This document shows positions 34,444 through 46,029 of a stretch of 64,000 nucleotides of DNA, piece by piece. Position numbers and translations under genes: made by a program. Each line of letters starts with the position of its first letter. The stretch's first letter is position 1. The notes under the pieces are model-generated. The model ran no database searches, was not told the origin of the DNA, and worked only from the letters and a program-made list of their open reading frames with translations. Source of the DNA: Kangiella sp. HZ709 (GTDB lineage: Bacteria > Pseudomonadota > Gammaproteobacteria > Enterobacterales > Kangiellaceae); NCBI RefSeq assembly GCF_009674675.1, contig NZ_WKJC01000001.1, forward strand, positions 1 through 64,000. Reading direction: 5' to 3'.

Positions 34444-35133
34444 TTGAGTTCAAAACAATCTGAACCAAGTTCTTATAGCTCTTCTTGTTTAGAAGTCAAA
34501 GGGCTAACCATTTCCCGTAACGAGCAAGTCTTGCTCGAAAATATCGATTTAAGTTTTACATCTGGCAGCATTACTCACTTATTTGGTGAAAATGGTGCGG
34601 GTAAAACAAGCCTTATGCGAGCTTTGGCTGGCCTTTTAAACCACGACTCAGGTCAAATTTGTTGGCGTGGTTTTAAAACTAGCCATCCTGAAGCTAACTT
34701 TTCTCAAGACTTATTATTTTTGGCTCATAACTTAGCGATGAAGAGTGAATTAACCATTGCTGAGAATTTACAGTTTTACACAGACCTGCGTGGCAAGTCA
34801 GTGTCGCGAAGTGAGATTCAAACTGTCGCTTCCGAGCTTAGAATTGAAAGCTTGCTCGAAAGGCACTTTGCTGAACTTTCTGCAGGCCAGCAACATAAGG
34901 TTTCTTTATCTCGGTTGGTATTAGAAAGCGCTAAGTTATGGGTTTTGGATGAACCATTTGTCAACTTAGATGCACGAACCCGAGATTGGCTTTCTGACAA
35001 AATGATGAATTTCGCTAAAAAGGGTGGAGTAGTGATCTTTACTTCTCACCAAGCCATTGATGGTTTAAAGATCCATCAAAAGGTATCTTTGACTCATAAA
35101 GATAGGAATGAGCAAAGCGAGGCAGCCGCTTAA
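34444..35133 (+). CDS. ccmA: Haem exporter ATP-binding protein CcmA
   Basis: The protein has 229 residues and a TTG start. No in-frame ATG lies before the first conserved strand. The ABC motifs are Walker A FGENGAGKTS (about 46-55), signature LSAGQQHKVSL (about 142-152) and Walker B LWVLDEPF (about 160-167). CcmA with CcmB, CcmC and CcmD releases holo-CcmE during System I cytochrome c maturation on the inner membrane. The N-terminal 16 residues (Ser-rich) are a lineage-specific extension or a sign that translation starts slightly later. Its stop shares a base with ccmB. Confidence 0.92.
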   Translation: MSSKQSEPSSYSSSCLEVKGLTISRNEQVLLENIDLSFTSGSITHLFGENGAGKTSLMRALAGLLNHDSGQICWRGFKTSHPEANFSQDLLFLAHNLAMKSELTIAENLQFYTDLRGKSVSRSEIQTVASELRIESLLERHFAELSAGQQHKVSLSRLVLESAKLWVLDEPFVNLDARTRDWLSDKMMNFAKKGGVVIFTSHQAIDGLKIHQKVSLTHKDRNEQSEAAA

Positions 35134-35816
35134 TGTTTATAACCTTGCTCAAGCGTGAACTAATGTTGGCTCGTCGTAATTGGGTGGCAGTCTTAATACC
35201 ATTATTTTTCTTTATCATGGTGGTGTCATTATTCCCATTTGCGGTTAGCCCTGAAGCCGAGTTTCTAAGACAAATAGCGCCAGGCGTGATTTGGGTGTCC
35301 GCTCTTTTAGCAACACTGCTATCGCTTGATTTTTTCTACCGTGGTGACTATCAAGATGGCTCTTTAGAGCAGTTATTGATTATGAGCAGTCCAACCCAAG
35401 TGGCATTGTCAAAAGTAGTAGCTCATTGGCTAGTCACAGGCTTGCCATTAGTCTTGGTTTCGCCTTTGTTGGCCGGCTTAATGCACTTAAATTATAGCCC
35501 GGATGGCATACTGCTTGAGCGTGGGCATACTCCAATCATGATGTTCTCCTTACTACTAGGAACTCCAAGTTTATGTTTACTAGGTGCAATAGGCATGAGC
35601 TTATCTTTAGGTGCGTCTCGTAATGGTATGTTAGTAGCGGTAATGATTTTACCGTTGTACGTACCAATTTTAATCTTTGGAAGTGCAGTTATTACAGCAT
35701 CTTTAGGAAATAGTGGGTATAATGCGCAGCTGGCGATTTTAGCTGCAATTTTGCTCTTTGCGTTGACGCTGACACCCTTTGCAATAGGGCGAGCACTGAA
35801 AGTCGCGGTAAGCTAA
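35133..35816 (+). CDS. ccmB: Haem exporter permease CcmB
   Basis: The protein has 227 residues and six membrane spans. 'LKRELMLARRNWVAVLIPLFFF' opens it, and 'LDFFYRGDYQDGSLEQLLI' (about 66-84) is the family hallmark. The segments 'SPLLAGLMHL' and 'LLGTPSLCLLGAIG' follow. CcmB is the membrane subunit of the CcmAB transporter. The start overlaps the ccmA stop by one base; 40 bases separate it from ccmC. Confidence 0.94.
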   Translation: MFITLLKRELMLARRNWVAVLIPLFFFIMVVSLFPFAVSPEAEFLRQIAPGVIWVSALLATLLSLDFFYRGDYQDGSLEQLLIMSSPTQVALSKVVAHWLVTGLPLVLVSPLLAGLMHLNYSPDGILLERGHTPIMMFSLLLGTPSLCLLGAIGMSLSLGASRNGMLVAVMILPLYVPILIFGSAVITASLGNSGYNAQLAILAAILLFALTLTPFAIGRALKVAVS

Positions 35817-35856
35817 ATATTATCAATTTGCACAGAATTAAGAGATAAACAGTTAG

Positions 35857-36606
35857 ATGGCAAACTCTTCTATGAGCTCCTGGCGCTGGTTTCATCAGTT
35901 AGGTTCTCCAAAATGGTTCTACCAAAAGTCGGCTAAATGGCTTCCTTGGTTATGGGCCATTACTACAATGCTATTAGCATTTGGCCTGTATTATTCTCTA
36001 TATGCTTCGCCTGTAGATTATCAGCAGGGTAATAGCGTTCGTATTATGTATATTCATGTTCCTGCAGCAGCCTTATCCATGGTCGGTTATTTATCCATGG
36101 CGGTTTGTGCGGTTATTGGATTGGTTTGGAAAATGAAGATGTCATTTATGGCCATGCGAGCCATCGCACCTATTGGCGCTTTATTTACTCTAATCACCTT
36201 GTTTACAGGTTCCTTGTGGGGACTTCCAACTTGGGGTACTTGGTGGGAGTGGGATGCTCGCATGACTTCAGAGTTGGTTTTGCTTTTCTTATATTTAGGT
36301 TTTATTGCACTTCATAGTTCATTTTCTGACAGGAATAAAGCTGATCGCTCGGCTGCAATCTTGGCTATTGTCGGTGCTATAAATGTGCCAATTATTTATG
36401 GCTCGGTGAAATGGTGGAATACATTGCACCAAGCTTATTCGGTGACTAAAAAAGGAGCTATTGCTCCTGAAATGCAAACGCCACTATTTATTATGATCGG
36501 CGCTTTTTATTTGCTATTTGCCATTATGGTCATCGTTCGTTTGCGTCTTGAAATTATCAATCGTGAAGCTAAATCAAAGTGGTTGCAAGCGGAGATTACA
36601 TTATGA
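35857..36606 (+). CDS. ccmC: Haem transporter CcmC
   Basis: The protein has 249 residues and six spans. The tryptophan-rich signature 'WGLPTWGTWWEWDARMTSEL' (about 127-146) lies in the periplasmic loop that handles haem. Flanking His residues in 'RIMYIHVPAAALSM' (about 63-76) and 'VKWWNTLHQAYSV' (about 187-199) would be axial ligands. CcmC loads haem onto CcmE. It overlaps ccmD by four bases (ATGA). Confidence 0.95.
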   Translation: MANSSMSSWRWFHQLGSPKWFYQKSAKWLPWLWAITTMLLAFGLYYSLYASPVDYQQGNSVRIMYIHVPAAALSMVGYLSMAVCAVIGLVWKMKMSFMAMRAIAPIGALFTLITLFTGSLWGLPTWGTWWEWDARMTSELVLLFLYLGFIALHSSFSDRNKADRSAAILAIVGAINVPIIYGSVKWWNTLHQAYSVTKKGAIAPEMQTPLFIMIGAFYLLFAIMVIVRLRLEIINREAKSKWLQAEITL

Positions 36607-36803
36607 CTTTACAAGAGTTTTTTGCTATGGGAAATCATGGCTTTTACGTTTGGTGGAGTTATGGCTTAACTTTGTTAGTAATTGTTTTATTATTTATAGG
36701 CTTTGCTTGGTATAAAAAGCAGTTACTCAACAAGATTAAAAGTTTTAAGCGCGAAATTGGACAAAAGGCAAGAAGTGTTAAAACCGAAAAAATTTCTGAC
36801 TAA
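36603..36803 (+). CDS. ccmD: Haem exporter protein CcmD
   Basis: The protein has 66 residues from the ATG at 36603; the frame extends upstream into ccmC, but the four-base overlap start is the standard one. 'EFFAMGNHGFYVWWSYGLT' precedes a single membrane helix (LLVIVLLFIGFAWY) and a basic tail, exactly the CcmD layout. It stabilises the CcmABC-CcmE complex. Confidence 0.92.
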   Translation: MTLQEFFAMGNHGFYVWWSYGLTLLVIVLLFIGFAWYKKQLLNKIKSFKREIGQKARSVKTEKISD

Positions 36804-36824
36804 TTATCGGGTATAGATAGTCCT

Positions 36825-37304
36825 ATGAAAGCTCATCGAAAGAAAAAATTGATAACTATTTTATCCTCGCTAGTACTGCTTAGTACTGCGGTGGGATTAT
36901 TGCTATATGCCATTGGCGATTATGCCGATGCTTTTTACGAGCCTTCGCGTGTAGTGAATGGTGATGCTCCGCTGAATAAGACTATTCGGGTGGGCGGTTT
37001 GGTTACAACAGGCTCGGTTAAACGCGCAAAAGATAGTCTTTATGTTGAGTTTGACATCACTGATAATCAAGAAGTCATCACCATCACTTTTGATAAAAGC
37101 TTGCCAGATTTATTTCGCGAAGGGCAAGGCATTATGGCTGAGGGTAAGTTGGTCGATAGTAAAACGCTTAAAGCGACTAAAGTCTTAGCCAAGCATGATG
37201 AAAAATATATGCCACCTGAAATTGCTGAAACGCTTAAGAAAAGTCATAAAGATGGCGTCAAAAAAATGGAGCAGCAAGGCGAAAAGCAAAAGGGCAGTTA
37301 TTAA
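36825..37304 (+). CDS. ccmE: Haem chaperone CcmE
   Basis: The protein has 159 residues. An N-terminal membrane anchor (LITILSSLVLLSTAVGLLLYAI) is followed by an OB-fold ('IRVGGLVTTGSVKR', 'DITDNQEVITITFDKSLPDLF'). The haem-binding site is 'AKHDEKYMPPE', with His at 124 and Tyr at 128 in the HxxxY pattern. CcmE carries haem covalently in the periplasm from CcmC to CcmF. The charged tail of about 25 residues is normal. The stop overlaps the ccmF start by one base. Confidence 0.95.
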   Translation: MKAHRKKKLITILSSLVLLSTAVGLLLYAIGDYADAFYEPSRVVNGDAPLNKTIRVGGLVTTGSVKRAKDSLYVEFDITDNQEVITITFDKSLPDLFREGQGIMAEGKLVDSKTLKATKVLAKHDEKYMPPEIAETLKKSHKDGVKKMEQQGEKQKGSY

Positions 37305-39271
37305 TGATCCCAGAGCTTGGTCACTTCTTTCTAATTTTAGCCTTAGTTAATGCAGTCATTTTAGGCACTTTGCCATTTTATGGTGCCCATACCCAGCACA
37401 ATGGTTTAATGCGCTTAGCATCAAAGGCTGCCATAGGGCAATTTATCTTATTGTTAGCCAGCTATATCTGTTTAACGATTGCATTTGTACAAGATGATTT
37501 TTCAGTAGCCTATGTTGCCAATCATTCGAATACTTTATTGCCGCTACGCTATAAAGTAACCGCTGTTTGGGGTTCTCACGAAGGCTCTTTATTGCTTTGG
37601 ATCATGATCCTAGCTGCTTGGATGGCGGCAGTGGCACTATTTAGTAAAGCTTTAACTTCGGTAATTAGAGCTAGAGTATTAGCAACTCTAGGGCTTATCT
37701 CCGTTGGCTTTGTAAGTTTTGCTTTATTTACATCAAACCCCTTTGAGCGGGTATTACCTTTTATCCCAATTGATGGCGCCGACTTAAACCCTTTATTACA
37801 AGATTTTGGCATGATCGTTCACCCGCCAATGTTGTATATGGGGTTTGTTGGTTTTTCGGTGGTGTTTGCTTTTGCCATCGCAGGATTATTACAAGGTGAC
37901 TTAGATCAAAAGTGGGCAAAGTGGGCGCGCCCCTGGACCACGGTTGCTTGGATATTCTTAACCATTGGCATTGCACTTGGTAGCTGGTGGGCTTATTACG
38001 AATTAGGCTGGGGAGGCTGGTGGTTTTGGGATCCAGTTGAAAATGCTTCATTTATGCCTTGGCTTGCAGGAACTGCCTTATTGCATTCGTTGGCAGCAAC
38101 AGAAAAACGCGGTGCTTATAAATCTTGGACGGTGTTACTGGCTATTCTGACTTTTTCACTGAGTTTATTAGGTACTTTTTTAGTTCGCTCAGGGGTGTTA
38201 ACTTCAGTTCACGCCTTTGCTACTGATCCTGAAAGAGGTCTGTTTATTTTAACTTTCCTTGGCTTGGCCGTGGGCGGTGCTTTAGCGCTTTATGCATGGC
38301 AGTTTGATAAATTAAAGTCGAATAATAACTACACTTTGATTTCTAAAGAAATTGCTATTGTCTTAAACAATGTACTATTGTTTTCGAGCTTATTAGTAGT
38401 TTTACTTGGAACCTTATATCCATTATTAGCCGATTATTTGTGGGAACAGAAAGTTTCAATTGGCCCTCCATTTTTTGATCCTTACTTTTCTTTCTTTTTT
38501 GCATTTATTTTGTTCTTGATTCCCTTTGGGCAGCAAATGAATTGGAAGCAAGATAAACTATCTAAAATACTATTGCTACAGCTAGCATTACTAGGTTTAG
38601 CCGTCATACTATCTAGCTTGCTATTATCCTGGCTAGCCAGCGAATTATTGTTGTGGCCGCTAGTCGGGGTAAGCCTATCTTTATGGTTGACGCTGGCGTG
38701 CCTAGCTTACGTTGTCAAGTTATCGAAGAACGCTTCTTCTTTCTTGCAAGGCATTAAAAAAATTCGTAGAAGTTATTGGGGTATGTTATTAGCTCATACC
38801 GGACTTGCGGTGACGACCATTGGCGCTATTGTTACCACTTTTTATTCAATTGAAAAAGATGTGCGTATTGAACCGCAACAAACGGTAGCAGTTGGTGATT
38901 TAAATATCTATTTTGAAAAGTTTGATAATTTTACTTTTGAAAATTACATCAGTTCGCAAGCAACTTTGAAAGTATCTGAAGATGGTGATCACCTGGTGAC
39001 TTTGAAGCCCGAGAAAAGACGCTATCGAGTTTCAGGTCAGTTGATGACTGAAGCGGCGATCCATCCTGGCTTATTTTCAGATTTGTATATTTCGCTGGCT
39101 CAGCCTTTAGAGCAGGGTGCTTGGGCTATTAAAGTCTATTATAAGCCTTTTGTACGCTGGGTATGGCTTGGGGCGCTTTTAATGGCATTAGGTGGGCTTC
39201 TAGCTGTATCTGATAAACGTTATAGGCAAAAGAAATTTACTAAGGCTAAAGGTGAGCGTAATGAAAGCTAA
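37304..39271 (+). CDS. ccmF: Cytochrome c haem lyase subunit CcmF
   Basis: The protein has 655 residues and about 15 membrane spans. The haem-handling signature 'ELGWGGWWFWDPVENASFMP' (about 231-250), 'VWGSHEGSLLLWI' (about 88-100) and 'DFGMIVHPPMLYMGFVGF' (about 166-183) are all present. CcmF with CcmH/CcmI transfers haem from CcmE to the CXXCH motif of apocytochromes c. It overlaps ccmG by 11 bases. Confidence 0.96.
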   Translation: MIPELGHFFLILALVNAVILGTLPFYGAHTQHNGLMRLASKAAIGQFILLLASYICLTIAFVQDDFSVAYVANHSNTLLPLRYKVTAVWGSHEGSLLLWIMILAAWMAAVALFSKALTSVIRARVLATLGLISVGFVSFALFTSNPFERVLPFIPIDGADLNPLLQDFGMIVHPPMLYMGFVGFSVVFAFAIAGLLQGDLDQKWAKWARPWTTVAWIFLTIGIALGSWWAYYELGWGGWWFWDPVENASFMPWLAGTALLHSLAATEKRGAYKSWTVLLAILTFSLSLLGTFLVRSGVLTSVHAFATDPERGLFILTFLGLAVGGALALYAWQFDKLKSNNNYTLISKEIAIVLNNVLLFSSLLVVLLGTLYPLLADYLWEQKVSIGPPFFDPYFSFFFAFILFLIPFGQQMNWKQDKLSKILLLQLALLGLAVILSSLLLSWLASELLLWPLVGVSLSLWLTLACLAYVVKLSKNASSFLQGIKKIRRSYWGMLLAHTGLAVTTIGAIVTTFYSIEKDVRIEPQQTVAVGDLNIYFEKFDNFTFENYISSQATLKVSEDGDHLVTLKPEKRRYRVSGQLMTEAAIHPGLFSDLYISLAQPLEQGAWAIKVYYKPFVRWVWLGALLMALGGLLAVSDKRYRQKKFTKAKGERNES

Positions 39272-39812
39272 AAAAATAATCATTGCTGTAACCCCTTTGT
39301 TGATTTTCTTGGTGCTGGTTTTAGTCTTTAAATCATCCTTAAGCAATGACCCTCGTAAATTAGAAACCAAGTTGGTTGGCCAGAAGGTTCCTAGCTTTAA
39401 ATTAGGTTCGGTAACAAATCCTGAGCAAGTTATTACCGATGCAGATTTACCTAAAGAAATATATCTGCTGAATGTTTGGGGCACCTGGTGTGTTTCTTGT
39501 TATGCCGAGCATCCTTATTTAATGGAGTTTTCAAAGACCTATCCTATTAAATGGGTTGGTATGAATTATAAAGATCAGCCAAAAGACGCTATTGATTATT
39601 TACAAAAATATGGCGATCCCTTTATTTATTCCATTGCTGATATTAGTGGTCAACTAGGCATTGATTTAGGCGTTTATGGGGCACCTGAAACTTTTATTGT
39701 CGATGCCGAAGGTTATATTAGAGATCGTCATGTGGGTGTGATCGATAACAGAGTGTGGAATAAGGTAATAGTCCCTAAGTTAGAAGCAATTGGCTGGGAG
39801 AATAAATTATGA
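39261..39812 (+). CDS. ccmG: Thiol:disulfide interchange protein CcmG/DsbE
   Basis: The protein has 183 residues from the ATG at 39261 (a GTG nine bases earlier is also in frame). After an N-terminal membrane anchor comes a thioredoxin-like periplasmic domain with the active site WCVSC (Cys 77 and Cys 80) in 'NVWGTWCVSCYAEHPYLMEF', and the cis-proline region 'GVYGAPETFIVDAEGYI'. It keeps the apocytochrome thiols reduced. The start lies inside ccmF, and the end overlaps ccmH by four bases. Confidence 0.94.
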   Translation: MKAKKIIIAVTPLLIFLVLVLVFKSSLSNDPRKLETKLVGQKVPSFKLGSVTNPEQVITDADLPKEIYLLNVWGTWCVSCYAEHPYLMEFSKTYPIKWVGMNYKDQPKDAIDYLQKYGDPFIYSIADISGQLGIDLGVYGAPETFIVDAEGYIRDRHVGVIDNRVWNKVIVPKLEAIGWENKL

Positions 39813-40216
39813 AAACTTTTTTGATAACCCTTTGCTTATTAGTTTCCTTTACTAACTTAGCTAATGAAACTTATCAATTTGATAGTCCTGAACAAGAACG
39901 ATTGTATCGAGAGATTGCCAACGAATTACGTTGTCCTAAATGCCAAAATCAATCGATAGCGGACTCTGATGCGCCTTTATCTGAAGATTTAAGATACCTT
40001 GTTTACCAAAAGTTGAAAGCAGGGGAAAATAAACAGCAAATTCTTCAGTATATGCAAGATCGTTATGGTGATTTTGTTTTATACGATCCTCCTATCTCGC
40101 CGAAAAATTATGTTCTTTGGTTTATGCCTTTGCTGGTATTTATCATTATCATTATTGCTTTGATAGCTAGAGTCGGACGTCGCGAGTTACAACCAGAAGA
40201 TGAGGCTGAAGAGTAA
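39809..40216 (+). CDS. ccmH: Cytochrome c maturation protein CcmH (CcmH/CycL N-domain)
   Basis: The protein has 135 residues. A signal peptide is followed by the three-helix domain with LRCPKCQNQSIADSDAP (the two redox Cys at about 39 and 42). 'LVYQKLKAGENKQQILQYMQDRYGDFVLY' and a C-terminal membrane helix complete the family pattern. It reduces the apocytochrome together with CcmG. The separate ccmI gene follows immediately, the usual split arrangement outside enterics. Confidence 0.95.
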   Translation: MKTFLITLCLLVSFTNLANETYQFDSPEQERLYREIANELRCPKCQNQSIADSDAPLSEDLRYLVYQKLKAGENKQQILQYMQDRYGDFVLYDPPISPKNYVLWFMPLLVFIIIIIALIARVGRRELQPEDEAEE

Positions 40217-41287
40217 GTGATAGTATCAGCAATCTTTATTTTAGTGGCGCTAAGTTGGGCCTTTTGGCTTTTTAGTAATACATTTCAAAATGGCAATTCG
40301 AAAGTTGTATTTCTGCTATTCAGCATGATAACAGTAATGACTAGTTATGGGATTTATCATCAATTAGGTGCCAATAAAGAAATCCAAGCACTTGCCGCAC
40401 AGCATCAAGAATTAAAAAGCCGCTCGATTGAAGAGTTAGCGCAAATGGTAACCGATAAGAAAATTACCGTTAATCAATTGCTACATGAATTACGTTTAAG
40501 GCAAGAAGCAAATCCAGAGGATTCCGGGGCTTGGATGAAATTAGGCGAGCTGTTAACCTTAAGCGCCGCGGGTTCTACTAGCCCCCAAGAACCGCAAGCT
40601 GAGACTGACTCTATGCGTCAGTTGGCTAAGCAAGCATTTAATCGGGCTAGTCAAGTTGGTAACCAAGAACAACAAATTAATACCAGAATTGAGGTAGCCA
40701 AAACTTATTTAACTTACCGTGAATTTGATAGTGCATTAGAGCAGTTAAGTTTAGTTTTATTAAAGAATAATACTCATGAGGGCGCTTTAATGATGAAGGG
40801 CTTGACTGAATCTCGTTTAGAGAAACATCAAGCTGCCATTGATACTTGGAAGTTCTTAGCCAGTCGCCGCCAACAAGATAGTGAGTCCGCTCAGCTAATA
40901 AACAACCTTATAGAAAATGAACTAGAGCGTTTAGAATTCACTCAGTCACAATTTATTGAAATCACTATAAACAACTTTGCTAACCTAGATTTACAGAGTT
41001 TTACAAAAGCATTTGCTATTGTTCGACCGGTAGCTGGTGGAGCACCAATTGCAGTAAAATCGATAGATATTTCGGAACTAGAAGAAACCATTAAAGTGAC
41101 CCCTGAAAACTTAATGTTTAGCACCGCAGATTTTTGGCAAGCTATTGATTTAAAAGTGGAAATTAGATTTTCTCAAACTGGTCTTGCTAAACCAGAAACT
41201 GGCGATATCTTCGGGCAGCTCTCACCAATTCAAGGACTTACCCCTACCCAAAATTACTCCCTGACTATTGATCAAGTTGTGAACTAG
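40217..41287 (+). CDS. ccmI: Cytochrome c maturation TPR protein CcmI
   Basis: The protein has 356 residues and a GTG start directly after the ccmH stop. Two N-terminal membrane helices (about 1-52) flank a short basic loop. A cytosolic or periplasmic Leu-zipper-like part ('HQELKSRSIEELAQMVTDKK') follows, and then TPR repeats (about 95-220) and a C-terminal beta domain ('PVAGGAPIAVKSIDISEL'). CcmI holds the C-terminal end of apocytochromes c and delivers them to CcmF/CcmH. It is the last gene of the Ccm run. Confidence 0.9.
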   Translation: MIVSAIFILVALSWAFWLFSNTFQNGNSKVVFLLFSMITVMTSYGIYHQLGANKEIQALAAQHQELKSRSIEELAQMVTDKKITVNQLLHELRLRQEANPEDSGAWMKLGELLTLSAAGSTSPQEPQAETDSMRQLAKQAFNRASQVGNQEQQINTRIEVAKTYLTYREFDSALEQLSLVLLKNNTHEGALMMKGLTESRLEKHQAAIDTWKFLASRRQQDSESAQLINNLIENELERLEFTQSQFIEITINNFANLDLQSFTKAFAIVRPVAGGAPIAVKSIDISELEETIKVTPENLMFSTADFWQAIDLKVEIRFSQTGLAKPETGDIFGQLSPIQGLTPTQNYSLTIDQVVN

Positions 41288-41362
41288 ACTGCATTAATAT
41301 TGCTACTATTTCTTTGACTTATATTTTCAGCGCAATTAATCTCGAATTATTAAGTGTTAGAT

Positions 41363-41390
41363 GTAACAAACTTGCTGGACGTATGTCTAA
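41363..41390 (+). promoter_or_regulatory. Candidate ECF-sigma-type promoter for the Hvf-type operon
   Basis: GTAAC (41363-41367) is followed 17 bases later by GTCTAA (41385-41390), resembling extracytoplasmic-function promoters (AAC in the -35, TCTAA in the -10). No sigma-70 pair as good was seen. The start of transcription would lie about 30 bases before the ATG, and an AGGAG RBS is at about 41420. Confidence 0.3.
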
Positions 41391-41429: not shown

Positions 41430-41921
41430 ATGTTAAAGAAAGATAAAGCAAAGTTAGCCGTATTAGTATCAGCATCATTATCTGCATCTGTAGCAATGAC
41501 TAGCGCAACTGCTAGCCCATTCTCAGTTAGCGATCTATCACAAGGCTATAACCTTGCTCAATTCGATGGCGAAGGCAAATGCGGTGAAGGCAAATGCGGC
41601 GAGTCTAAGAAAGATGGAAAAGAAGGCAAATGCGGCGAAGGTAAATGTGGCGAGTCTAAAGGCAAGAAAGGCAAAGAAGGCAAATGCGGCGAAGGTAAAT
41701 GCGGCGAGTCTAAAGGCAAGAAAGGCAAAGAAGGCAAGTGCGGTGAAGGTAAATGCGGCGAGTCTAAAGGCAAGAAAGGCAAAGAAGGCAAGTGCGGCGA
41801 AGGTAAATGCGGCGAGTCTAAAGGCAAGAAAGGCAAAGAAGGCAAATGCGGCGAAGGTAAGTGCGGCGAGTCTAAAAAAGGTAAAGAAGGTAAATGCGGC
41901 GAAGGTAAGTGCGGCGGATAA
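41430..41921 (+). CDS. hvfA: HvfA-type secreted precursor with 14 EGKCG motifs (copper-binding RiPP precursor)
   Basis: The protein has 163 residues. An N-terminal signal peptide (MLKKDKAKLAVLVSASL..., cleavage probably near residue 28 after an Ala-Thr-Ala) precedes a short linker and then 117 residues of repeats. All 14 Cys of the protein sit in EGKCG motifs, arranged as seven EGKCGEGKCG pairs separated by Glu-Ser-Lys-rich linkers. In Haemophilus HvfA, EGKCG cysteines are converted by HvfB/HvfC to oxazolone/thioamide groups that bind copper. The downstream MNIO and DUF2063 genes support the same chemistry here. A terminator-like hairpin separates it from the enzyme genes, so precursor mRNA should be in excess. 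Confidence 0.9.
   Translation: MLKKDKAKLAVLVSASLSASVAMTSATASPFSVSDLSQGYNLAQFDGEGKCGEGKCGESKKDGKEGKCGEGKCGESKGKKGKEGKCGEGKCGESKGKKGKEGKCGEGKCGESKGKKGKEGKCGEGKCGESKGKKGKEGKCGEGKCGESKKGKEGKCGEGKCGG
41622..41837 (+). repeat. Four tandem 54-bp repeats inside the precursor gene
   Basis: Codons 65-136 are four identical 18-residue units (EGKCGEGKCGESKGKKGK). The DNA copies differ only at a few third-codon positions (for example ggcaaatgcggc against ggtaaatgcggc), showing recent duplication or gene conversion. Partial copies flank them on both sides (41568-41621 and 41838-41918). Confidence 0.92.
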
Positions 41922-41938
41922 TTCTTTAGCTTGAAGAA

Positions 41939-41968
41939 TAAAAAGTGGTAGCTTGCTGCCACTTTTTT
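41939..41968 (+). terminator. Intra-operon terminator between precursor and modifying enzyme genes
   Basis: AAAAGTGGTAGC / GCTGCCACTTTT forms a 12-bp stem (one T-G wobble) with a two-base loop and a T tract. It lies 17 bases after the hvfA stop and 60 bases before hvfB, the position expected for a leaky terminator that keeps enzyme levels below precursor levels. Confidence 0.85.
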
Positions 41969-42027
41969 ATTTAAACATGTTGCAAATTAACATTAATTCA
42001 TAAATTCGTTAGTAAAGGTTTTTTCAA

Positions 42028-42876
42028 ATGAACCAGTTAGTTACAGGAGCAGGTCTAGGTTTAAGACGAGATTTTTCTGATCAGTTTGAAACTGTCAGCC
42101 AGTCTTGTGTTGATTTTATGGAAGTGGCGCCTGAAAATTGGATTCCATTTGGAGGGAAATTTACTAAACAATTTGAACAATACGCCGAGCGATTTCCGTT
42201 TGTCATTCATGGATTATCCTTGTCTATTGGTGGTCCAACCCCGTTAGATACCGACTTCGTTAAGCAGGTTGCTCAGTTCATTAAAAAATACAACATTAAG
42301 AGTTACAGTGAGCATTTAAGCTATTGCAGTGATGATGGGCATTTATATGATTTAATGCCAATTCCGTTTACTGAAGAAGCGGTGCATTATGTTGCCGATC
42401 GAATTAAGCAAGTGCAGGACATAATTGGTATGAAGCTGGCGATGGAAAATGTGTCTTATTATGCCGCTCCAGGTCAAGAGATGTCTGAACTAGAATTTTT
42501 ATTGGCGGTGTTAGAAGAAGCTGATTGTGATTTACTGTTGGATATTAACAATATCTACGTTAATTCTATTAACCATAAGTATAATGCTGAAGAGTTTTTA
42601 AAGGCTTTACCTAAAGAGCGGATCGCCTATGCCCATATAGCTGGGCACTATGATGAAGCAGATGATTTAAAGGTGGATACTCATGGCGCCGACGTAAAAT
42701 CTGATGTTTGGGCTTTATTAGAAACTGCTTACCAAGAGTTTGGTGTTTTCCCAACTTTGCTTGAGCGTGACTTTAACATTCCGCCACTCGCTGAATTATT
42801 CTCAGAAGTAGCACAGATCAAAACCATCCAGCAAAAGTATCTTGATAAAGATTTGTCTGGTAAAGCCATTGCTTAA
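42028..42876 (+). CDS. hvfB: HvfB-type multinuclear iron oxidase (DUF692/MNIO)
   Basis: The protein has 282 residues and a TIM-barrel DUF692 family fold. The visible metal-site candidates in order are E36-N37 (APENW), H61 (VIHGLSLSIG), E95-H96 (SEHLSY), E140-N141 (MEN), D172/N174/N175 (LLLDINNIY), H203 and H207 (AHIAGH), D217/H219 (VDTHG) and E246 (LLERDFN). The family uses two or three irons and oxygen to rewrite cysteine residues, as MbnB does in methanobactin and HvfB in Haemophilus. Substrate here is almost certainly the adjacent precursor. It starts 27 codons after the hairpin region and runs into hvfC. Confidence 0.93.
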   Translation: MNQLVTGAGLGLRRDFSDQFETVSQSCVDFMEVAPENWIPFGGKFTKQFEQYAERFPFVIHGLSLSIGGPTPLDTDFVKQVAQFIKKYNIKSYSEHLSYCSDDGHLYDLMPIPFTEEAVHYVADRIKQVQDIIGMKLAMENVSYYAAPGQEMSELEFLLAVLEEADCDLLLDINNIYVNSINHKYNAEEFLKALPKERIAYAHIAGHYDEADDLKVDTHGADVKSDVWALLETAYQEFGVFPTLLERDFNIPPLAELFSEVAQIKTIQQKYLDKDLSGKAIA

Positions 42877-42895
42877 GATAGCAGACTGGAGACTA

Positions 42896-43675
42896 ATGAG
42901 TAGCCTACCTAAGTTTCAACAAGTACAGTTCGATTTTGCCGGGCATTTGCGTAACCCTGAACAGGTAAAGAAACCAACCAGCATTGAAGATAGACGTATG
43001 AAAGTCTATAGAGACTTGTTTTATAACAATGTTGAAAACTTTTGTAGTAATAGCTTTCCAATTTTACGTGAACTGACTAGCGATAAAAAATGGCACCAGA
43101 TGGTTCGACAGTTTTTTATCGACTATCGGGCTCATAGCCCTTATTTTAGGGATATCTCTAAAGCCTTTCTGGATTACTTGAACGAGCATCGTCAACCAGA
43201 GGACGACGATTACCCCTTTATGACTGAATTGGCTCATTGGGAATGGATGGAGCTTAACGCGCTTTCTGATACCGGCGACATACGCCAGTTTCCTCACGAC
43301 CGTAATGGCGATCTTTATTCACAAAAAGTAGTAATTTCGCCATTAGCTTGGCCATTGGTTTACCAATACCCTGTACATAGAATTGGTGATGCTTTTGTGC
43401 CAACTGAAAGCCCAGAACAGCCAACCTTTTTAATTATTTCTCGCAATCGTGAGCATCAAGTAGATTTTATGGAAACGAATGCAATTACTTATCGACTGCT
43501 TGAAATCTTCCAAGAATCTGAAGAAGAGGAAGGAAGCCAGTTGACTGGTTCTGAAGCTATTCAAAAGCTACAACAGGAAATTCAATTTCCAAATCCTGAA
43601 CAGTTGATCGAAGGCGGCAAGAAAATTCTGCAGGACTTTTTAGAGCGAGATGTAATTCTTGGAGTAAATCTGTAA
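42896..43675 (+). CDS. hvfC: HvfC-type DUF2063 partner protein
   Basis: The protein has 259 residues from the ATG at 42896. The frame is open upstream into hvfB from a TTG at 42842, but MSSLPKFQQVQFDFAGHLRN is the natural family start. The N-terminal DUF2063 helical domain (about 1-110) has 'RRMKVYRDLFYNNVENFCSNSFPIL'. A C-terminal domain contains 'WPLVYQYPVHRIGDAF'. Partners of this kind bind the MNIO enzyme and recruit the precursor peptide. It lies 19 bases after hvfB. No DoxX-type membrane protein, common in relatives of this operon, follows. Confidence 0.9.
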   Translation: MSSLPKFQQVQFDFAGHLRNPEQVKKPTSIEDRRMKVYRDLFYNNVENFCSNSFPILRELTSDKKWHQMVRQFFIDYRAHSPYFRDISKAFLDYLNEHRQPEDDDYPFMTELAHWEWMELNALSDTGDIRQFPHDRNGDLYSQKVVISPLAWPLVYQYPVHRIGDAFVPTESPEQPTFLIISRNREHQVDFMETNAITYRLLEIFQESEEEEGSQLTGSEAIQKLQQEIQFPNPEQLIEGGKKILQDFLERDVILGVNL

Positions 43676-43742: not shown

Positions 43743-44474
43743 ATGAAATCAAAATTACTTTCCATCATATTGCTTACGATCCTTCTTGCGGGCTGTGCAT
43801 CTACAGGTAATAACCCTAAAGATCCTTACGAAGGGTTTAATCGTTCAGTTTGGAAATTCAATAAGGGGTTAGATACGGTTATTCTGAAGCCAGTAGCAAA
43901 AGGTTACAAAGCGGTAACCCCCGATGTGGTAGAAACGGGAGTATCTAATTTCTTTCAAAATATTGGCGAAGTACCAACTATCCTGAATGATATTTTGCAG
44001 TTTAAATTGGGCAAGGCGCTTAAAGATACCGGTCGCTTTTTAATAAATACGACCTTAGGAATTGGTGGACTATTCGATCCTGCCACCGAGTTTGGAATTG
44101 AACACCAACCAGAAGATTTCGGTCAAACATTGGCTGAGTGGGGCGTAGGGGACGGTTCTTACTTAATGCTGCCTTTCTTAGGACCCTCAACGACACGCGA
44201 TGCCTTTGGCCAAGGTGTGGACAGTGTGGTTTTGTATAATCTCTATGATGAATTAGAAAACGATAGCCAAACGGAAATTGCTTTGCGTATCTTTGATATA
44301 GTGCAAACTCGAGCAGGCTTATTAAGTTTAGATGACCAATTAAATTCTGCACCTGATGACTATTCGTTAGTGCGTGACGTTTATTTGCAAAGAAGACAAT
44401 TCTTAATTCACGACGGCAACCCGCCAATTGAAGATGAAGAATGCGAATTTGAAGAAGATTGTGAGGATTTTTAA
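43743..44474 (+). CDS. mlaA: Outer membrane lipid asymmetry lipoprotein MlaA (VacJ)
   Basis: The protein has 243 residues. A lipoprotein signal ends at LLAGC (Cys at about 18). 'DPYEGFNRSVWKFNKGLDT' (about 27-45) and 'FGQTLAEWGVGDGSYLMLPFLGPSTTRD' parts (about 129-155) are family hallmarks. MlaA with an outer-membrane porin removes misplaced phospholipids from the outer leaflet and passes them to MlaC. The other mla genes are not in the window. The end is unusually acidic (Glu/Asp-rich). It is preceded by 67 bases after hvfC and could have its own promoter. Confidence 0.94.
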   Translation: MKSKLLSIILLTILLAGCASTGNNPKDPYEGFNRSVWKFNKGLDTVILKPVAKGYKAVTPDVVETGVSNFFQNIGEVPTILNDILQFKLGKALKDTGRFLINTTLGIGGLFDPATEFGIEHQPEDFGQTLAEWGVGDGSYLMLPFLGPSTTRDAFGQGVDSVVLYNLYDELENDSQTEIALRIFDIVQTRAGLLSLDDQLNSAPDDYSLVRDVYLQRRQFLIHDGNPPIEDEECEFEEDCEDF

Positions 44475-45382: not shown

Positions 45383-45462
45383 TAGAAACATTTTGAAACA
45401 ATAGCTATTTGATCTCTAAAGCTATTTGCATCAAGGTTTAGAAAACTTTCTCAGGGGTGAGC

Positions 45463-46029
45463 ATGAAGCTAAATACTATTCTCTTACTATCCTTGGTTTT
45501 ATTACCTTCGTATGCCAAGGCTTCTTATTTTCAGTTGAAACCCTCCGATAATGCTTATCAGCAGGTTAAACAGCTATTGCCATTGATTGGTTCCTGGTCT
45601 TGCCAAAGTAGTTCGCTCCAACCTGATGGTAACTGGCAGAAAACTTCCAACCGTTCTCAATGGGACTGGAAGTACATTTTAAATGGTCATGCTATTCAAG
45701 ATTTTTGGTATCCAAATGAGTCTAATTTAGAAGCTCCTGGCGCAGGAACTAATTTGCGAACGTATGACCCTGTTAAAGATGCTTGGGAGATGGTTTGGAC
45801 GTTTGATAAATACAGCCGTTTCCAAACGTTTAATGCAAGTTTCAAAGATAATAAATGGGTAATGCAAGGAGAATATCCTGCCAGTAAAACTAGGCCTGCT
45901 CATATGGCTCGAATAACTTTTTACAATATTTCAAATAAGTACTTCGATTGGTATTATGAATCATCAAACATTGGAGACGGAAAGAATTGGATGAAAGTAG
46001 CAAAAATAGCGTGTGATAAAAAACCATGA
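45463..46029 (+). CDS. Secreted DUF1579-like protein of unknown function
   Basis: The protein has 188 residues from the ATG at 45463, chosen over the in-frame GTG six bases earlier because AGGGG sits at the right distance. A signal peptide (cleavage near 'SYAKA') is followed by a beta-rich domain: 'LLPLIGSWSCQSSSLQPDGNW', 'WDWKYILNGHAIQDFWYP', 'LRTYDPVKDAWEMVWTF'. This order of blocks is that of lipocalin-like DUF1579 proteins. The stop overlaps the start of the next gene by four bases, so it is co-translated with the amidohydrolase. Confidence 0.72.
   Translation: MKLNTILLLSLVLLPSYAKASYFQLKPSDNAYQQVKQLLPLIGSWSCQSSSLQPDGNWQKTSNRSQWDWKYILNGHAIQDFWYPNESNLEAPGAGTNLRTYDPVKDAWEMVWTFDKYSRFQTFNASFKDNKWVMQGEYPASKTRPAHMARITFYNISNKYFDWYYESSNIGDGKNWMKVAKIACDKKP

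Follow-up and report, generated by a model that had tools for sequence, protein, structure and literature searches.

Three genes, hvfA, hvfB and hvfC, follow one another on the forward strand of the window, i.e. the whole stretch of 64,000 bases that was analysed (bases 1-64000 of contig C3 in a 2.41-Mb Kangiella assembly), and are preceded by a promoter-like site (Table 1). The ccm genes A to I immediately precede hvfA, in agreement with the preliminary description, which had placed the cluster directly after the cytochrome c maturation genes; the function of ccmA-ccmI is probably separate from that of the hvf cluster. At 45457-46029, a gene that is present in only some loci of the genus encodes a 190-aa protein, signal-peptide-like by eye and with no Pfam match at E 0.001.

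Table 1. Features of the hvf locus and its neighbours, in positions of the window
Feature	Position	Strand	Basis or remark
ccmA to ccmI, upstream neighbour	34444..41287	+	ORFs; Pfam for ccmF, ccmG, ccmI; family-conserved order
Promoter-like site TGTAAC-N17-GTCTAA, ECF-type -35/-10	41362..41390	+	39 bases 5' of the hvfA start codon
hvfA, EGKCG-repeat RiPP precursor, 163 aa, 14 Cys	41430..41921	+	ORF, tandem repeats, NCBIfam
Hairpin with T-rich 3' side in the hvfA-hvfB gap, possible partial terminator	41940..41967	+	RNA fold
hvfB, MNIO (DUF692) peptide-modifying enzyme, 282 aa	42028..42876	+	PF05114, NF003818, PDB 3bww
hvfC, RRE/DUF2063 partner protein	42896..43675	+	NF050145, PDB 3dee
mlaA lipoprotein gene, downstream neighbour	43743..44474	+	PF04333, 255.7 bits

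Every one of the 14 cysteines of HvfA falls inside an EGKCG motif, as had been claimed. This pattern is not due to chance, since HvfA is encoded by a tandem array of a 54-bp unit in 6.6 copies. The N-terminus resembles a Sec signal peptide, with KKDKAK, then LAVLVSASLSASVAMT, then SATAS (n, h and c regions read by eye). HvfA passes the NCBIfam repeat-domain model NF050137 (155.7 bits, cut-off 19.5) and misses the stricter HvfA equivalog model NF050188 (81.9 bits, cut-off 95), so that we place it in the HvfA repeat family and not as a strict HvfA equivalog; no Pfam match was found for the precursor at E 0.001, DUF2282 included. That the peptide is undescribed, as was supposed, holds for its exact sequence only, about 2,000 EGKCG proteins being already in print (PMC12452194, in part).

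The precursors of all 23 readable Kangiella-family loci have 8-16 motif cysteines, a few cysteines besides these being due to an over-long 5' reading, and their number of repeats is variable; one of these loci has the variants EGACG and EGSCG. In 4 of the 27 close loci (G024, G027, G028 and G038) the contig stops in or just before hvfA. The hvfA repeats break assemblies, so that repeat counts taken from draft genomes need care. In one relative (L241:1773-1802) two in-frame TGA codons stand at EGKCG cysteine positions; they are probably an assembly fault, because they lie within 55 bases of a contig end, in a metagenome-type assembly, and no such TGA occurs in the other loci examined.

HvfB is an enzyme of the MNIO (DUF692) family (PF05114, 353 bits) and passes the HvfB-family model NF003818 of NCBIfam (448.7 bits, cut-off 360). 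Its nearest solved structure is PDB 3bww (E 8.1e-80), a Histophilus somni MNIO, and its nine candidate metal ligands (H61, H96, E140, D172, H183, H203, D217, H219 and E246) all align with identical residues there, which bears out the full set of His, Asp and Glu residues announced beforehand. The partner had likewise been rightly assigned: HvfC has the Pfam domains DUF2063 and NGO1945_C, passes the HvfC model NF050145 (294.2 bits, cut-off 142, NCBIfam) and has as nearest solved structure PDB 3dee (E 3.9e-9), a partner protein of N. gonorrhoeae (for both structures PMC13097082, in part). The hvfC frame opens at TTG 42842, and ATG 42896, preceded by GGAG, is the likelier start. As the whole genome has one MNIO match and one DUF2063 match, the HvfB-HvfC pair is without rival here.

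Judged by its sequences, the gene set is an example of the already known HvfABC system, with the standard three genes. The HvfABC-type identity given in the preliminary description stands as far as the HvfA repeat-domain, HvfB and HvfC models are concerned, and gives way on the HvfA equivalog. It is most improbable that HvfA is a decayed or unmodified cysteine-rich repeat protein whose enzymes are idle: the frames are open, the enzymes are conserved (in an alignment of 10 sequences, the columns average 79% identity) and the upstream site is conserved across the genus, even though the precursor repeats change number fast and no expression was seen in Microbulbifer under the conditions tried (PMC12538549, in part).

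The hairpin between hvfA and hvfB has a folding energy of -18.7 kcal/mol (z -2.94), which 1 of 200 shuffles matched. Inspection by eye shows a GC-rich hairpin after hvfA in 17 of the 18 genus loci examined, several of them with a weak T tract. A scan for consensus terminators gave none on the + strand at this hairpin, and its terminator count was not above that of shuffles. The hairpin may lead to more precursor than enzyme.

Gene order in the Kangiella family and beyond

An MNIO match occurs in 32 of the 40 family genomes and in all 20 of the genus, each of which encodes a homologue 77% or more identical to HvfB. The close family loci number 27: 19 from genus genomes, seven from other genera, and that of the window. 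Directly 5' of hvf, the ccm genes are found in all 23 family loci with a contig long enough to show this region (17 in the genus and six in other genera; four genera in all by database labels), the four contigs named above ending before the ccm region. On the 3' side, mlaA follows in 26 of the 27 loci, and the remaining contig ends after hvfC; through this neighbour the peptide might be connected with lipid transport to the outer membrane. Three additional loci, whose MNIOs are more distant (37-42% identity; L061-L063), have no ccm. Relatives of other genera (G001, G014, G036 and G037) have a second or third MNIO copy that is likewise more distant, sharing 35-42% identity with HvfB. We found no prior mention of the ccm-hvf-mlaA order in the open-licence literature; this order of the Kangiella family is new here.

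For a wider view, a scan of GTDB species genomes gave 584 confirmed relatives, the best 80 of which are the named loci. Among these best 80, ccmF is found in three (L064, L066 and L083), all of the Kangiella family, on flanks of up to 10 kb with many contigs shorter (the family contigs L065 and L076 end early). The ccm adjacency is old, but it is seen only in the Kangiella family, and as evidence for a role in cytochrome assembly it is weak. From its constancy in four genera one might suppose that the peptide serves specifically to protect cytochrome c maturation, shielding haem ligation and the thiols of CcmG and CcmH from periplasmic copper. We hold this to be quite unlikely, because the adjacency is seen in this one family. 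Besides, the gap between ccmI and hvfA contains a conserved promoter-like site belonging to hvfA itself, and the open-licence literature on MNIO and cytochrome c maturation yields nothing beyond plant mitochondrial genomes. The functional tie to haem and cytochrome assembly that had been proposed finds no support in the ccmF count.

Neighbours were counted within 4.5 kb of hvfB in the 47 loci, out of the best 80 of 584 relatives, that are flanked by 4 kb or more on each side. We found mlaA in 15 of the 47 (three of the 15 from the family), HvfX in 17, a gene with a glutamate-synthase domain in eight, and an ECF sigma gene like the HvfX-linked one of Kangiella (see below) in none. Over the whole of the best 80, many of which are on short contigs, the counts are 34 for HvfX, 20 for mlaA and 13 for the glutamate-synthase-domain gene. 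That mlaA comes after hvfC is not peculiar to the Kangiella family; Microbulbifer is another instance.

An unlinked HvfX gene

The DoxX-like protein HvfX is a usual but not universal neighbour of hvf genes. The preliminary description had noted that a DoxX-like gene is lacking; this is true of the window, which has no DoxX match, and not of the genome, which has one, at C3:1436662. It belongs to an HvfX-family gene (C3:1436584-1437255) on the same contig, unlinked and 1.4 Mb from hvfABC, whose product passes the equivalog model NF050144 (215.1 bits, cut-off 80, NCBIfam). A cluster without DoxX partner is rejected, since HvfX was found by this whole-genome search.

The gene before that of HvfX encodes a protein of 506 aa in which a glutamate-synthase FMN domain is recognised (PF01645, 288 bits); divergent from these two are an ECF sigma gene and the gene of a 77-aa zf-HC2 protein, which is likely the anti-sigma factor of the adjoining ECF. 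The ECF, zf-HC2 and HvfX genes are together in 21 of 21 loci (17 of the 20 genus genomes and four other family genomes), and the glutamate-synthase-domain gene accompanies them in 18. The HvfX match is strong in 19 of the 20 genus genomes and reaches only E 7e-4 in G021. All four genes can be seen together at L053:4056-7256 (about C3 1434055-1437255).

In the 13 relatives counted above, from the best 80 of 584, the glutamate-synthase-domain gene stands beside the hvf genes, and in some (L072, L107) the order is hvfABC, glutamate synthase, hvfX. In Kangiella, it thus seems, a larger hvf cluster is present in split form. The split is new here: we found in the open-licence literature nothing that ties glutamate synthase to MNIO, DoxX or HvfX clusters, and the term is absent from the main texts of PMC12452194 and PMC13097082. 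The unlinked HvfX and its glutamate-synthase-domain neighbour show that some parts of the system are missed when only the genes within the cluster are counted.

A conserved promoter-like site before hvfA

All 23 aligned regions in front of hvfA have the same seven bases, TGTAACA; from TGTAAC, a constant spacer of 17 bases leads to a TC-containing, -10-like element that is exactly GTCTAA in 14 of them. The site before hvfA is the sole exact match to TGTAAC-N17-GTCTAA in this genome. At the level of the genus, TGTAACAA-N15-GTCTAA has one match in each of 16 of the 20 genomes—the reversed-pattern control giving 0 in all 20—and 14 of these 16 are the aligned hvfA sites, while the other two (L241 and L243) also lead into an hvfA frame. 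When the window is shuffled, 18 of 100 shuffles contain a match with no more than one mismatch, so that the case for a promoter rests on conservation. A promoter scan restricted to the sigma-70 type gave promoter-like sites no commoner than in shuffles. When up to two mismatches are allowed, the genome has 97 and 89 matches vs 133 and 114 for the reversed control; being fewer than the control, they allow no claim of a regulon beyond hvfA. TGTAACA-N16-GTC has two matches vs four for its control.

Outside the family we considered 56 loci, among the best 80 of 584 relatives, whose precursor has at least two GKCG and is preceded by enough DNA. In these, the best pair of an unguided spaced-pair search occurs in 13, vs at most six in 30 shuffled sets. 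GAAAC-N17-GTC stands before 23 of the 56 precursors (shuffle mean 0.3, largest 3), numbers that overstate independence since this pattern was chosen once the data had been viewed and there are close relatives among the loci. Changing the spacer leaves 0 matches for GAAAC-N16-GTC and one for GAAAC-N18-GTC in the same 56 loci. The remaining 33 do not have GAAAC-N17-GTC; three of the 56, all Microbulbifer, have TTGAAC-N18-GTC instead.

This pattern suggests that hvfA would be controlled by an ECF sigma factor, and hence by oxidative or envelope stress, rather than by direct copper sensing. The neisserial sigma E operon NMB2140-2145, with the ZAS anti-sigma MseR, has the -10 element CGTCTAAH (PMC2893595, in part), and GTCTAA is common to it and to the hvfA site. 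In H. influenzae, RpoE2 responds to hypochlorite and controls a doxX/DUF cluster, which is RpoE2-dependent and HOCl-induced (PMC7907618, in part). We take both clusters as HvfABC homologues because of the domain names in these two sources. The 11 matches to sigma70 region 2 in the genome count against naming one sigma for hvfA. So does the distribution of the HvfX-linked ECF, present in 38 of the 40 family genomes, including six of the eight that have no MNIO match; and TGTAAC-N17-GTCTAA was found before neither this ECF gene nor the glutamate-synthase gene in 18 aligned intergenic regions.

The open-licence literature gave us no such site in print and no paper combining MNIO, extracytoplasmic function and promoter, and the word 'promoter' is absent from the main text of PMC12452194. 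The conserved promoter-like site of hvfA is new here, and it provides a direct, cheap handle on the inducing signal. One may go further and consider the EGKCG peptides of Gammaproteobacteria as ECF targets as a class, the split units of Kangiella acting together and the peptide being a redox-stress response. This broader reading, to which we give an even chance, draws on the strict 17-base spacer shared by these sites, with GAAAC or TGTAAC and then GTC, even without a nearby sigma gene; the Kangiella units would be the ccm- and mlaA-linked hvfABC on the one hand, and the distant sigma/anti-sigma, glutamate-synthase-domain and HvfX genes on the other. If true, a redox-stress response would account for copper alone not inducing in Microbulbifer.

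Function and comparison with known systems

Gene identities, motif counts, the conserved order, the conserved promoter-like site and the HvfX gene elsewhere in the genome are direct observations. The field to which they belong was reportedly founded by two PNAS reports in 2024. HvfBC is described as putting six 5-thiooxazoles on HvfA, for which HvfC is required, each conversion of cysteine being a four-electron oxidation (PMC13419390, in part). EGKCG products bind Cu (PMC13097082, PMC12538549, in part), and it is as 5-thiooxazoles that the EGKCG cysteines bind Cu(I) (PMC13419390, PMC13097082, PMC12538549, PMC12452194, in part). The oxazolone/thioamide groups named in the preliminary description have been revised to 5-thiooxazole in the literature (PMC13097082, PMC13419390, in part).

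We regard it as highly probable that the locus, taken as a whole, is a captophorin/oxazolin-type (HvfABC) cluster making a thiooxazole copper(I) peptide from an ECF-type stress promoter, with the distant HvfX assisting. A periplasmic copper-binding product would be the best function by family precedent. The chemistry, copper binding, export and stress induction of this scheme are borrowed from relatives. Under envelope or oxidative stress, hvfA would be turned on from the ECF-sigma-type promoter, and the hairpin 3' of it may hold the precursor in excess over the enzymes. The HvfB-HvfC pair would bind the signal-peptide-bearing precursor in the cytoplasm and oxidise its EGKCG cysteines, up to 14, to 5-thiooxazoles; HvfX, encoded 1.4 Mb off, would probably assist. 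Exported by Sec, the modified HvfA would be in the periplasm a multi-site copper(I) sponge.

It is possible, though we find it rather doubtful, that the product is a response to oxidative stress (from hypochlorite or peroxide) or to a soft metal other than copper, copper binding being a side property. The ECF-type promoter before hvfA points in this direction, as do the H. influenzae cluster, which depends on RpoE2 and HOCl (PMC7907618, in part), and the Microbulbifer proteins, not detected under copper (PMC12538549, in part); on the other hand, copper binding is on record for related products of the EGKCG and bufferin types, and bufferins improve growth in the presence of copper (PMC12452194, PMC13097082, in part). 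For the Microbulbifer homologues of these widespread peptides no expression was seen with or without copper, and their genes gave E. coli slight protection only, the authors declining a copper-protection role (PMC12538549, in part).

Compared with known systems, the putative copper(I)-peptide cluster of Kangiella is like methanobactin MbnABC in its MNIO superfamily and its predicted cysteine-derived copper ligand, and differs by a precursor made of repeats with a signal peptide (read by eye); methanobactin identity is rejected, the MbnB equivalog scoring 49.8 for a cut-off of 325. The bufferins (Buf1/DUF2282, Buf2; BufB/BufC) have in common with it an MNIO with DUF2063 and, as predicted for Kangiella, a Sec-exported precursor, thiooxazole and copper. 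Here the precursor is without DUF2282 and the MNIO misses the BufB equivalog (269.1, cut-off 310), so that bufferin identity is rejected too.

Closer are Microbulbifer MmrABC (bulbicupramide) and Fontimonas FonABC (fontiphorin), which also consist of an EGKCG precursor, an MNIO and a DUF2063 partner. The downstream mlaA link is common to Microbulbifer and Kangiella; MmrA, however, has a reported five to eight cysteines vs 14 in HvfA of Kangiella, and the Microbulbifer loci among the best 80 of 584 relatives have no ccm genes nearby. The HvfABC/HvfX system of H. influenzae (oxazolin, captophorin class) likewise has a precursor with paired EGKCG motifs and a signal peptide (the latter read by eye in Kangiella), an HvfB-family MNIO, an HvfC-family RRE/DUF2063 partner and an HvfX-type DoxX in the genome. 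It differs by six motif cysteines in HvfA (PMC13419390, in part) instead of 14, and by having the HvfX gene in the operon; in Kangiella HvfX lies 1.4 Mb off, together with a glutamate-synthase-domain gene, and the neighbours are ccm and mlaA. ECF control is likely common to both clusters.
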